A stretch of 64,000 nt of DNA, taken from Bryobacteraceae bacterium (GTDB lineage: Bacteria > Acidobacteriota > Terriglobia > Bryobacterales > Bryobacteraceae). Below the pieces are notes generated by a model. The model had not been told where the DNA came from. It was given only the letters and a program-made list of their open reading frames with translations, and did no database searches. The DNA lies in assembly GCA_026002855.1 (NCBI GenBank), contig BPGD01000001.1, forward strand, positions 992,001-1,056,000, read 5' to 3'. The translations under genes were made by a program, and so were the position numbers. Shown piece by piece: positions 43,898-50,406 of the stretch. How positions within the stretch are numbered: position 1 is the stretch's first letter; every line of letters begins with the position of its first letter.

Positions 43898-43926
43898 TTG
43901 AATTCCAGTCGTCTCGGTAATATAAT
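43898..43926 (+). promoter_or_regulatory. Sigma70-type promoter of the TonB receptor
   Basis: TTGAAT (43898-43903), exactly 17 bp, perfect TATAAT (43921-43926). Initiation near 43933 would give a leader of about 63 nt with AAAGGGG at 43978-43984 before the ATG at 43996. Best vegetative promoter in the window. Confidence 0.75.
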
Positions 43927-43995
43927 CCTGCTAACCGTCACCTCGCTCCTCCGGGAGCTGGCGGCGACCGAACGACTGAAAGGGGTATACAGCGA

Positions 43996-46900
43996 ATGAG
44001 AACGCATTGGATGGCGCTGCGCCGCATCGCCGGGGCAGCGATCCTGCTGACGCTTGTTGCGGGTCTCTCGTTCGCCCAGCAGATCTCCGGATCCATCACT
44101 GGCGTGGTCAAGGACACGCAGGATGCGGTGATTACGGGCGCGCGGGTGACCCTCATCGATCAGGCAACCGGCGGCACCCGTTCCACCACAAGTGGCAACG
44201 ATGGCGCCTTCGTGTTCACGCCGGTACTTCCCGGCACGTACACAATCACTGTCGAGGCGCCGGGCTTCAAGAAATACGAACAGAAGGACGTCAAGGTGTT
44301 CGCCAGCGACCGCGTCACGCTCGGGGATCTGATTCTCAGTGTCGGCGCGCTCACGGAAACCATCACAAGTGGAAGCCAGCGCCGTGCAGGTGAGCACCCA
44401 AGGCGCCGAGAAGGCGGGCATCCTCACCTCGCGCCAGGTGCTGGACCTCGCCATGACCGGCCGCAACTTCCTGGACCTGGCCCGGACCATCCCGGGTGTT
44501 GTCTACACCGGCGGTCTGGGCGGGATCTGGGCGAACGGCAACCGCGGCAACCAGAACAACCTTCTGCTGGACGGCGTGACCAACGTCGATACCGGCTCCA
44601 ACGGCGGCGTCCTCGCCACCACCAACATCGACATGATCGCCGAAATGAAGGTGATCACCAACGCCCAGCCGGCCGAGTTCGGCCGTTCTTCCGGCGCGCA
44701 GATTCAGGTGGTCACCAAGTCCGGCACGCAGCAGTTCCACGGTACCGGCTACATCTTCCACCGCCATGAGGGCCTGAATGCCAACACATGGCGCAACAAC
44801 ATCGAGGGCCGGCCCCGCCAGCTCTATCGCTACAACTTCGCCGGCTGGAACCTGGGCGGCCCGGTCTACATCCCGGGCAAGTTTAACCAGGACAAGAACA
44901 AGCTGTTCTTCTTCGTGGGCATGGAATGGCAGAACCAGCTTGTCCCGAACGCGCTTCGCAGCGTGACCGTGCCCACCGAGCTCGAGCGCAAGGGCGACTT
45001 CTCCCAGTCCCGCGAGGGCGGCGGCAGCCCGGTGGTCGTCAAGGATCCGCTCGCTGGCGGAGCCCAGTTCCCGGGCAACGTCATTCCGGCCTCGCGGCAG
45101 GACCCGGACGGCATCAAGATCCTGAACTGGTATCCGATGCCCAATGCCGCCGGGCGCGACCCGAGCTTCAACTACCAGACCCAGGTCTCCGACACCTACC
45201 CGCGCCGTGAATACGTCTACCGCGGCGATTACAACATCAACGACAAGTGGCGCGTCTACAGCCGTTACATCAAGACCTACAGCCAGACGAACAAGAACTA
45301 CGGCCAGTGGAACGCCGACTACAACATCCCGTTCGCCCCGATGAACTTCGGCGATCCGGGCTGGAGCTTCATTACCAACGTCACCACGGTGATCAACCCG
45401 ACGCTGACCAACGAGTTCATTTTCGGGTCGTCCAAGAACAGGCTCAACATCGATCCCGTCGACGACACCTTCTCGCGCGCCAAGCTCGGGCTCCGTTACC
45501 AGATGCCCTTCCCTGACGCCGACAAGCTCGGCCTCGTGCAGAACTGGCGCTGGGGCGGCGTACCCAACTCGCCCTTCACCGGCTTCAACGGGACGCCCTT
45601 CCGCAACTTCAACCACACCTACGACATCACCAACAACATCGCCAAGGTCATGGGCGCGCACACGCTCAAGTTTGGCATCTACCTCCACAAGAGCCTGAAG
45701 GACCAGACCGCCTTTACCAGCGTGAACGGCAACATCTGGTTCGACCGCGACGCCTCCAACCCGTTCGACACCAACTGGGCCTGGACCAACGGACTCACCG
45801 GCACCTACCAGCGCCTGCAACAGTCCAACATCGTCCGCAACGGGCAGTACCGCTACTGGAACGTTGAATGGTTCGGCCAGGACTCCTGGCGCGTCACGAG
45901 GAAGCTCACCATCGACTATGGCATGCGCTTCTACTGGATCCAGCCGCAGTACGACAAGGCGCTCCAGACTTCCTCCTTCAACCCCGCCCTGTACAACCCG
46001 GCCAATGCCGCCCGACTTTGGCAGCCCTACCGCGACCCAAACACCGGCGCCGTGCTCGCCATCAATCCCGTCACCGGCCAGACCGGTCCCCGGGCGCTCA
46101 CCGGAGCCATCGTCAATGCAGGGGGCGGCTTTGTCGACGGCCTTTACGCCAACGGCATGGGCCGCGCCGGCCGCGACGGTTACCCGAAGGGCCTGATCAA
46201 CGGCCAGGGGGTCCTGTTCGCTCCGCGTATCGGCATCGCCTACCAGTTCATGCAGAAGACCGTGCTCCGCATGGGTGGCGGCATCTTCTATGACCGCTTC
46301 CAGGGCAACCCGGTCTTCGACATGCTCCCCAACCCGCCATCGACCAACAGCCCGCAGTTCTATTACGGCCAGCTCGCCTCCATTCCCCCGGCCAGCGCAG
46401 GCATCTATTTCCCCGCCAACGTCAACGGCTTTGACAAGAACGGCGAGATCCCGACCACCTACAACTGGAACGTCTCCATCCAGCGCGAGCTACCCTTCAA
46501 CGTGCTGTTTGATGTCGGATACGTGGCTTCCGTGTCGAATCACATCATCTATCGCCGCAACTTCAACGCGGTGCCCTATGGGTCGGCCTGGCTCCCGGAG
46601 AACCAGGATCCGCTCAACCCGAATCCGCAGTTCGACGGCTCGACCACGAAAAACGTTCTGTTCTACAGGCCGTTCCAGGGCTATGCCAACACAAACATCA
46701 TCGCCTTCGGCGCCAACTCGAACTACCACTCGCTTCAGATGAGCGCCAACCGCCGCTTCGGACGCGACCTGACCTTCGGCGTCGCCTATACCTGGTCGCG
46801 GGCCCTCGGGACCACCACCGACGACTACACCACCAACCATCCGTTCAACATGCGGGCGGCCGACTACGGGCCGCTCTTCTACCACCGCACCCACAACCTG

Positions 46901-47515
46901 GTGTTCAACTATGTCTACAATCTGCCGAAGTTCGCCAAAGGCGACTCGCTCGGAGCAAAGTTCCTCGGCCACGTCGTCAACAACTGGCAGATCTCCGGCA
47001 TCACCACCATGCAGACGGGCCAGCCGGACAATCTCAGCTTCTCGATTGACGGCGTGGGCAACCTGAACGAGCGCTACACCGGCTCGGTCGACGTAAGCCC
47101 GCGTCCGGTGATCACCGGCAAGTTCAACTACACCAAGGGCGACTACGCCTGGATCGATGCAAACGCCGCTGGTTTCAGGCTGCCTCCGCTGAAGGGCAGC
47201 CAGGGCTTCGACAGCGGCCCGCGCGTCGTCTACCGCCCCGGCGACCACAACTGGGACATCTCCGTCTTCAAGAACTTCCCCTACTGGAAGAACGACGAGA
47301 GCAAATACATCCAGCTCCGCGTGGAGATGTTCAACGCCTGGAACCACACGCGCTTCAGCGACTTCAACCGCTCGATGGTCTTCAGCCGCGACGGCACGCG
47401 CATCATCAACCTGCCGAACGCACTCGGCGGCAACGGCGGCCGCTTCGGCTTCGGCGCGCTGACCGCCACGCGCGACCCGCGCATCATTCAGCTCGCGGCC
47501 AAGTGGTACTTCTGA
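43996..47515 (+). pseudogene. TonB-dependent receptor, Oar-like, interrupted by a one-base frameshift
   Basis: Two overlapping frames together encode one receptor of about 1172 residues. Frame 1 from the ATG at 43996 gives a signal peptide (AILLTLVAGLSFAQ), a carboxypeptidase-regulatory domain (ISGSITGVVKDTQDAVITGA) and LSVGALTETIT. At about 44368 one extra base moves the continuation VEASAVQVSTQGAEKAG into the next frame, which then stays open to 47515 with the plug (NRGNQNNLLLDGVTNVDTGS) and a full barrel ending AAKWYF. Without the shift the product would stop at 44769 and have no barrel. Because the remaining 1000 or so codons are intact, the lesion is either very recent, a sequencing/assembly error, or a real recoding site. 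Promoter at 43898-43926. Confidence 0.85.
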
Positions 47516-47548: not shown

Positions 47549-48667
47549 ATGCTGGGATTCGCGCTGCTGGCAATGACACTGGCCGTCCCCCAGCCGGACC
47601 TGCTGGGGGACGGCCAGCTTGCTCTTGCACGTGGCGATTTCGACCGCGCCGAAGCGCTATTCCGCGAACATGTCCGCCGCTTCCCCGGCTCGGCCGAAGG
47701 CTGGTCGAACCTCGCCGCCGTGCAGGCCCGCCGCGGACGTTACGACGAAGCCGTCCCCCTCTATGAACGCGCCCTCAGGGCCAACCCGAAACTCGTCCAG
47801 GTTCATTTCAACCTCGCGGTAGCCCTCGGCCAGTTGAAGCGTTATCCCGAAGCGGCGGCGCATTTCCGTGCTTTCCTGAAAAGCTTCCCCGGCGACGCAC
47901 GGGCGCGCCAGCTTCTCGGGCTATGCCTGATGGAGTCCGGCGACCTGCGCGCAGCTCTGGCAGAACTGGAAAAGTCCTACCATCTGAACCCGAAGGACGG
48001 CAGCATTCTCTACGCGCTCGCCTACGCCCATGCACGCGGCGGCGACGAAGACAAGGCCGCTGCCTACCTGGCAAAAACCGAATCCAACCCGGTGCAGGCG
48101 AAACTCATCGAAGGGCTCCTGCTGTACCGCCGCGGCATGTGGGCCGAAGCCAAAGAGGCCTTCCGCGAGGTGGTCTCCAGGCGACCCGACTTCCAGCCCG
48201 CAGTGGCCGCGCTCGGACGGCTTGAGCTGCTCGAAAGAAATGACGCTGCCGCCATTCCACTGCTCGAACGGGCCGTCGAATTGAACCCTCATGATGCGGA
48301 ATCCGCCTATCAGCTCGGCGTCCTCTATGACCGCAATGGAGATTCTGAAAAGGGAAAGAAGATGCTCGAACGCGCCATCCGCCTGCGGGCCAATTACGGC
48401 GATCCGCACTACCAGCTCGGCCGCATCTATCAGCGCGAGGGCGATCTCGAGCGCGCTTTGCAGGAGCTCGAGATCGCAAAGAAGATCCTGCCGGACCAGG
48501 AGGCGGTCCGCTTCGCACTGGGCCGCCTGTATCAGACGCTGGGGCGCACGGCCGAGGCCCGCGCCGAGTTTGAGGAGGTCCGCCGGCTCAAGGCGCGGGT
48601 GGTGGAGCGCGACCGGCTGCGGGTGGAGTCGGACGCGCTCATGCAACAGGAGCCGGAATCCCGGTGA
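47549..48667 (+). CDS. TPR-repeat protein, exported
   Basis: 372 residues. A short hydrophobic N-terminus (LGFALLAMTLAVP) is likely a signal peptide. About nine tetratricopeptide repeats run from residue 18 to 350, e.g. GQLALARGDFDRAEALFREH, AAVQARRGRYDEAVPLYERA, GVLYDRNGDSEKGKKMLERA and GRIYQREGDLERALQELEIA. TPR arrays are protein-interaction scaffolds; no catalytic part. It starts 33 nt after the receptor and overlaps the CRTAC1-like gene by one base (TGATG), so these two are translationally coupled and probably form a complex. Confidence 0.88.
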   Translation: MLGFALLAMTLAVPQPDLLGDGQLALARGDFDRAEALFREHVRRFPGSAEGWSNLAAVQARRGRYDEAVPLYERALRANPKLVQVHFNLAVALGQLKRYPEAAAHFRAFLKSFPGDARARQLLGLCLMESGDLRAALAELEKSYHLNPKDGSILYALAYAHARGGDEDKAAAYLAKTESNPVQAKLIEGLLLYRRGMWAEAKEAFREVVSRRPDFQPAVAALGRLELLERNDAAAIPLLERAVELNPHDAESAYQLGVLYDRNGDSEKGKKMLERAIRLRANYGDPHYQLGRIYQREGDLERALQELEIAKKILPDQEAVRFALGRLYQTLGRTAEARAEFEEVRRLKARVVERDRLRVESDALMQQEPESR

Positions 48668-50406
48668 TGAGAGCCCTGACAGTGCTCGCCGTGGCTTCCT
48701 GCCTGGCCTTCGGGCAGGGCATCGCCAGCCGCGGCGTCAAGCCGCAGGCCAAGCCGCGCGCCTCCGGTCTTCCCTGGCACGCAAAATTCACAAACATCGC
48801 CCGCGAGGCCGGCCTCAACCAGATCCTGCACTACGGGGGCACGGAAAAGTCCGATTATGTCCTGGAGACGTCCTCCGGAGGAGTGGCCATTTTCGACTAT
48901 GACAACGACGGCCTGCCCGACATTTTCCTCGTTGTCGGATCGAAAATCACCAATCCGCCTCCGGACGCCGTCAGCCGCCTGTACCGTAACCTCGGCGGCC
49001 TGAAATTTGAAGACGTCACGAAAAAGGCGGGCCTCTGGCGGGAGCCCGGCTGGGCGCAGGGCGTCGCCATCGGCGACTACAACAACGACGGCTGCATCGA
49101 CCTGTTCGTCACGTACTGGGGCGACAACGCCCTCTACCGCAACAACTGCGACGGCACGTTTACCGACGTCGCCGAACAGGCTGGCCTGCTTCCCCGGCCG
49201 CGGCCCAGGGTGCCGCGCTGGGGATCGGGCGCCACGTTCGTCGACATCGACCGCGACGGATTCCTCGATCTCTACGTTTCGAATTACATCGATTTTGATC
49301 TCGAAAACACGCCCAAACCGGGTGAAAATCCCAACTGCAACTGGAAAGGCGTTCCCGTCTCCTGCGGACCGCGCGGACTGAAAACCGCCCGCCACTGGCT
49401 GTATCACAACCGCGGCGACGGCACCTTTGAAGATATCAGCGGGAAAGCCGGCATTGCGAAATTTGATAAGAGTTTCGGCATGACCGCCACGGCCTTCGAC
49501 ATTGATGAAGACGGCTGGCAGGACATTTACAATGCGTGCGACTCCACCCCCAGCCTGCTGTTTCGCAACAACGGCAACCTGACCTTCACCGAGGAGGGAA
49601 TCGAACGCGGCATCGCCCTCAACGACGACGGCATGGAGCAGGCCGGCATGGGGCTCGGCATCGGCGACGTCAATCTCGACGGGCGCCTCGACATCTTCAA
49701 AACGCATTTCGCCGACGATACCCATGTGCTCTATGTCAATGACGGCAGGGGCATGTTCCACGACATCACCCTGAAGGCCGGCATCGGCGTCGAGACCCGC
49801 CGCGTCGGCTGGGGCACGGGCATCTACGACTTTGATCACGACGGCCTGCCGGACATCTTCATCGGCACCGGCTGCGTCTATCCCGAAACCGAGGCCGCCC
49901 TGCCGGCTTACCCTTACAGGACCCGCCCGATGCTATTCCGCAACCTCGGCGACGCCCGCTTCGAGTGGCTCGAGGAAGAAGCCGGCCCCGCCATGCTGGA
50001 AAAACACTCCGTGCGCGGCGCCGCTTTCGGCGATCTCGACAATGACGGCGACATCGACATCGTGCTCTGGAACCGGAACGAAATGCCCTCCCTGCTGCGC
50101 AATGATCTTTCCGCCGAGGGCCGCTACTGGGTCCAGCTCCGGCTGGTAGGGACAAAATCAAACCGCGCCGCCATTGGCGCCCGCGTCGTGCTCGAATACG
50201 GCGGAAAAAAGCAGGCTAAAGCCGTGCTGTCCCAGGCCAGTTTTTATTCCGCCAACGACCTGCGCCTCCACTTCGGCCTCGGCAACGCCCGTCAGGCCCG
50301 GGCCACCGTGTTCTGGCCAAGCGGGCTCGTCGAAATCTTCAATCTCGACACCATCAACACGTTTCACACTCTGAAGGAAGGCGCCGGATTGCCGCCAACG
50401 CCATGA
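48667..50406 (+). CDS. Exported CRTAC1-like FG-GAP/VCBS propeller with ASPIC/UnbV domain
   Basis: 579 residues from ATG at 48667 (an adjacent GTG at 48664 adds one residue). Signal peptide about 1-19. Seven FG-GAP/VCBS calcium-binding blades follow: DYDNDGLPDIFLVV, DYNNDGCIDLFVTY, DIDRDGFLDLYVSN, DIDEDGWQDIYNAC, DVNLDGRLDIFKTH, DFDHDGLPDIFIGT, DLDNDGDIDIVLWN. The C-terminal 65 residues are an ASPIC/UnbV domain (ARVVLEYGGKKQAKAV, HFGLGNARQARATVFWPSGL). This family is abundant in Acidobacteriota and Planctomycetota, frequently beside TPR proteins; biochemical role not established. Likely extracytoplasmic and calcium-stabilised. Confidence 0.92.
   Translation: MRALTVLAVASCLAFGQGIASRGVKPQAKPRASGLPWHAKFTNIAREAGLNQILHYGGTEKSDYVLETSSGGVAIFDYDNDGLPDIFLVVGSKITNPPPDAVSRLYRNLGGLKFEDVTKKAGLWREPGWAQGVAIGDYNNDGCIDLFVTYWGDNALYRNNCDGTFTDVAEQAGLLPRPRPRVPRWGSGATFVDIDRDGFLDLYVSNYIDFDLENTPKPGENPNCNWKGVPVSCGPRGLKTARHWLYHNRGDGTFEDISGKAGIAKFDKSFGMTATAFDIDEDGWQDIYNACDSTPSLLFRNNGNLTFTEEGIERGIALNDDGMEQAGMGLGIGDVNLDGRLDIFKTHFADDTHVLYVNDGRGMFHDITLKAGIGVETRRVGWGTGIYDFDHDGLPDIFIGTGCVYPETEAALPAYPYRTRPMLFRNLGDARFEWLEEEAGPAMLEKHSVRGAAFGDLDNDGDIDIVLWNRNEMPSLLRNDLSAEGRYWVQLRLVGTKSNRAAIGARVVLEYGGKKQAKAVLSQASFYSANDLRLHFGLGNARQARATVFWPSGLVEIFNLDTINTFHTLKEGAGLPPTP

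Follow-up and report, generated by a model that had tools for sequence, protein, structure and literature searches.

In the Bryobacteraceae genome analysed here, the gene for an Oar-type TonB-dependent outer-membrane receptor is split by a one-base frameshift within its putative TonB box, and a genuine, recent loss-of-function mutation is on balance favoured over a residual assembly error. The window is a stretch of 64,000 nucleotides (positions 992001-1056000 of a single 4.44 Mb contig; genome completeness 100), and the bacterium is a member of Bryobacteraceae as judged by its relatives. The window's own genome (G000) was compared with three same-genus genomes carrying a receptor orthologue at 85–88% DNA identity (G001, G002, and G004) and with more distant homologues at 58 loci in public genomes, some of them duplicate records. 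The two halves of the split receptor were searched separately throughout (Pfam, tblastn), and comprise the following features.

43996 to 44367, forward strand: 5′ part in frame 1, encoding a signal peptide and a CarboxypepD_reg domain (PF13620) (reading frame, Pfam)
44356 to 44377, forward strand: TonB-box-like motif E-T-I-T/V-E-A, the slash marking the frameshift inside it (homologue motif; spacing match to M. xanthus Oar E118-I122)
44366 to 44369, forward strand: site of the one-base surplus (tblastn gap, alignment phase, four-way alignment)
44369 to 47515, forward strand: 3′ part in frame 2, 1048 codons with no internal stop, encoding the plug (PF07715) and the complete barrel domain (PF25183) (reading frame, Pfam)

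Frame 1 opens with the ATG at 43996 and reads through LTETIT up to 44367, past which it leaves homology and reaches a stop at 44769, for a product of 257 amino acids, while VEASAVQVST begins at 44369 in frame 2 and the stop codon lies at 47513-47515. The original prediction, of one surplus base around 44368 splitting an Oar-like receptor that has no other lesion and stays open for about 1050 codons in frame 2, was borne out: the halves are one base out of register, no second lesion was found in 3.5 kb, and a four-way alignment gives exactly one extra base, placeable anywhere in 44366-44369, with private changes beside it. Pfam detected CarboxypepD_reg in residues 33-109 of the 5′ part (E 5.7e-21), after a signal peptide at its start that was read by eye, and in the 3′ part the plug (PF07715, E 2e-6) and the OMP_b-brl_4 barrel (PF25183, positions 1-838 of the 838 in the profile, E 3.8e-167). 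Judged by this domain content, the product is a TonB-dependent outer-membrane receptor of the Oar subclass, with a putative role in transport or in secretion of the PopC type. The order of signal peptide, CarboxypepD_reg N-terminal extension, plug with TonB box, and outer-membrane barrel is that of Myxococcus xanthus Oar (PMC6434023), from which the window's copy differs in being frameshifted and in having a barrel that matches PF25183. A sequence search for a solved structure chain matching the barrel found none.

The position of the break within the receptor was not part of the original prediction. The V just after it is invariant in 67/67 distinct homologous sequences, most of which have E, S/T, V/I, and T ahead of it, giving the motif E-[ST]-[VI]-T-V between extension and plug. 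The spacing of E121 and V125 in the window equals that of E118 and I122 in M. xanthus Oar, in which the CarboxypepD_reg extension leads into a plug containing a TonB box, and where the variants E118R and I122P significantly reduce secretion support (PMC6434023). Motif and spacing together suggest that E-T-I-T/V-E-A is equivalent to the Oar TonB box and is split here.

Alignment to close relatives, which had been proposed as a check, placed the surplus base in the window only. By tblastn, the window has a gap of +1 at the join of the two halves. The gap is 0 in G001, G002, and G004, where the codon for the residue aligned with T124 directly precedes the V of VEAS, and likewise 0 in nearly all of approximately 65 further homologues. 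All but one of the other non-zero gaps among homologues are in-frame multiples of three; the exception, in the distant homologue L054, is a separate apparent −1 close to the join. These comparisons bear on the suggestion that the receptor makes two products by a programmed +1 ribosomal frameshift. Both frames are indeed open and well conserved, but none of the same-genus orthologues has the shift, so that there is no conserved shift site, and ATC-ACA-AGT-GGA contains no slippery or stop-assisted +1 signal, in keeping with the original description of the site as not a known strong slippery sequence. A programmed shift is therefore rejected as exceedingly improbable. A literature search on frameshifted acidobacterial Oar receptors returned nothing relevant.

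Phase variation often affects surface receptors, and the original prediction had paired it with recent inactivation as one option. The intact relatives support the recent inactivation, whereas the repeat-based variation fails, since the break sequence CACAAGTGG offers only AA and no long homopolymer; no homopolymer tract or short tandem repeat on which slipped-strand change could act was found at the break. The break 9-mer does recur upstream, and might there permit templated changes.

44187 to 44195, forward strand: CACAAGTGG, possible template on weak evidence; apart from the break itself (44364-44372), the 9-mer occurs nowhere else in the window

The two copies, separated by 177 bases, both fall within the receptor gene; 0.31 occurrences were expected in all, and CACAAGTGG is absent from both places in the same-genus relatives compared. 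However, a second copy on the same strand within 400 nt is found for about 2% of 9-mers of comparable divergence, a rate that takes no account of the several overlapping windows, and a template switch is therefore suggestive at most. A switch from 44187-44195 was set aside as an origin of the surplus base, since neither place carries ACAAGTGG in the relatives and a nearby copy arises by chance for about 2% of 9-mers. A reversible on/off switch of the receptor, with the off state assembled from a mixed population, is thus a very unlikely reading: it has the frequent phase variability of surface receptors and the upstream repeat in its favour, and against it the missing simple-sequence tract and a repeat that is absent in relatives and of a kind found by chance.

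To the 3′ part, the G000 branch contributed 88 synonymous and 25 nonsynonymous private changes (pN/pS 0.084), the lowest ratio of the four genomes (G004, 0.095; G002, 0.150; G001, 0.155), and in the 5′ part its ratio of 0.195 was again the lowest. Such constraint implies that the lesion, if real, is very recent; by these substitution patterns the gene was fully constrained until very recently, or still is. As in recent single-lesion bacterial pseudogenes, the frame is disrupted once in a gene that is otherwise intact and whole in congeners. Relaxed constraint, expected only of a break that is not very recent, was not seen at a pN/pS of 0.084, and the lesion, unlike those of such pseudogenes, is known from the assembly alone. 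The low ratio thus indicates either a very recent break or a gene unbroken in the cell, and it counts against a real mutation in that it is also expected if the base is a sequencing error and the living organism has an unbroken gene. Sequencing error, already among the options of the original prediction, remains viable and holds a substantial though lesser share of our confidence; strong purifying selection up to the present and the lack of a second lesion in 3.5 kb both fit it, as does the preservation of the regulatory region and neighbouring genes.

43898 to 43926, forward strand: sigma-70-like promoter TTGAAT-17-TATAAT (10/12 consensus match; shuffles 0.1)
43980 to 43985, forward strand: Shine-Dalgarno-like AAGGGG; the block around it is conserved across the four congeners compared
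47549 to 48667, forward strand: TPR protein, intact, adjoining the receptor
48664 to 50406, forward strand: FG-GAP/UnbV_ASPIC protein, intact

Both promoter hexamers are conserved in G001, the nearest congener, and are weaker in G004 and G002. The TPR and FG-GAP/UnbV_ASPIC genes adjoin the receptor in many relatives, down to approximately 52% receptor identity, which suggests that the receptor and these two genes (47549-50406 downstream) form a functional unit.

One residual indel per approximately 150 kb is plausible for a finished assembly, a further point against a real mutation. The surroundings were surveyed along contig C30 of G001, chosen because large-scale synteny of G004 is poor; it is collinear with 963-1104 kb of G000, and the total alignment is 156 kb. 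Alignment phase analysis was used in place of an ORF-based survey, in which antisense shadow ORFs abounded; searching ab initio for switches of frame in codon usage yielded more than 600 matches, mostly operon junctions, and was discarded. Indels with codon-periodic flanks and a length that is not a multiple of three number 43, and nearly all of them come in pairs that leave no net shift. The phase changes at four, and the three besides the receptor's look from sequence context like gene boundaries. Relative to G001, no gene in the 156 kb other than the receptor thus carries an uncompensated frameshift, and the assembly is not generally indel-ridden. A second survey covered 95 wobble-verified genes (138 kb) with over-extended starts and shadow frames removed, and left two genuine disruptions, the receptor frameshift and a TAG at 968760, the small flagged ORFs having been hand-checked in part. 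Apparent extra stops at 992420 and 1059868 fall outside genes, within over-extended starts where identity drops. A site that is not a long homopolymer, the lack of any further uncompensated intragenic indel in 156 kb, and the concentration of other point disruptions of this genome in the receptor's own family all speak against error. The clean surroundings and this concentration tip the balance toward a real mutation.

The sister receptors' fresh nonsense codons were likewise absent from the original prediction. Roughly forty loci in G000 carry this barrel profile, and three further full-length Oar-like receptors are each interrupted by a single in-frame stop.

G000 C1:968760-968762 (L223:2761-2763): TAG where G001 has CAG, in a full-length gene
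G000 C1, about 661960: TGA where congeners have TGG
G000 C1, about 1886546: TGA where congeners have TGG in 3/4 and GCG in one
L224:1960-1962 and L225:3546-3548: the same two TGA stops, in the coordinates of those stretches

Orthologues of the stop-bearing receptors are open in congeners, and identity to the nearest orthologue changes little across the stop (before/after, 0.84/0.81, 0.90/0.82, and 0.89/0.91), with the alignment spanning both sides. In the collinear stretch 2/5 receptors are disrupted versus 0/~90 other genes (Fisher p 0.002), a post hoc comparison of few events in which receptor genes are the longer. Internal stops, counted without frameshifts, occur in 3/30 high-scoring receptors in G000 versus 1/~150 among the matches listed for the same profile in four congeners (p 0.015), again post hoc, with few events and receptor gene length unweighted. 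Controls in the same genome had none (0 in 12 RND pumps, 0 in 19 MacB domains). It is possible, if doubtful, that recent point mutations in parallel are ridding the lineage of Oar-type receptors (a frameshift in one gene and nonsense codons in three, all otherwise full-length), an outcome that selection by receptor-using phages or bacteriocins, or by culture conditions, would produce. One frameshifted receptor alone is ordinary, and several fresh lesions clustered in a single receptor family would matter slightly more; parallel loss, if true, would point to which of the dozens of Oar-type receptors in these bacteria are dispensable or under attack.

Under a genuine mutation, the first gene of a conserved receptor-TPR-UnbV/FG-GAP cluster would have suffered a very recent one-base frameshift inside its TonB box in this strain. 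Translation from 43996 would yield an exported fragment of approximately 257 amino acids, CarboxypepD_reg plus a nonsense tail; the plug and barrel would either not be produced or be translated from internal starts and so lack a signal peptide, probably leaving no working receptor at the outer membrane. Such loss may be tolerated, perhaps even favoured, because the genome has some forty Oar-type receptors, at least three others of which carry fresh nonsense codons.

Incomplete remnants of Oar-type receptors were also observed near 1450, 1646, and 4290 kb of G000.

L216:1154-2860: Oar-receptor remnant
L217:2770-3816: Oar-receptor remnant
L218:2521-3582: Oar-receptor remnant

The L217 remnant has 85% identity to part of an intact receptor at 1264 kb of G000, and another receptor lies nearby.
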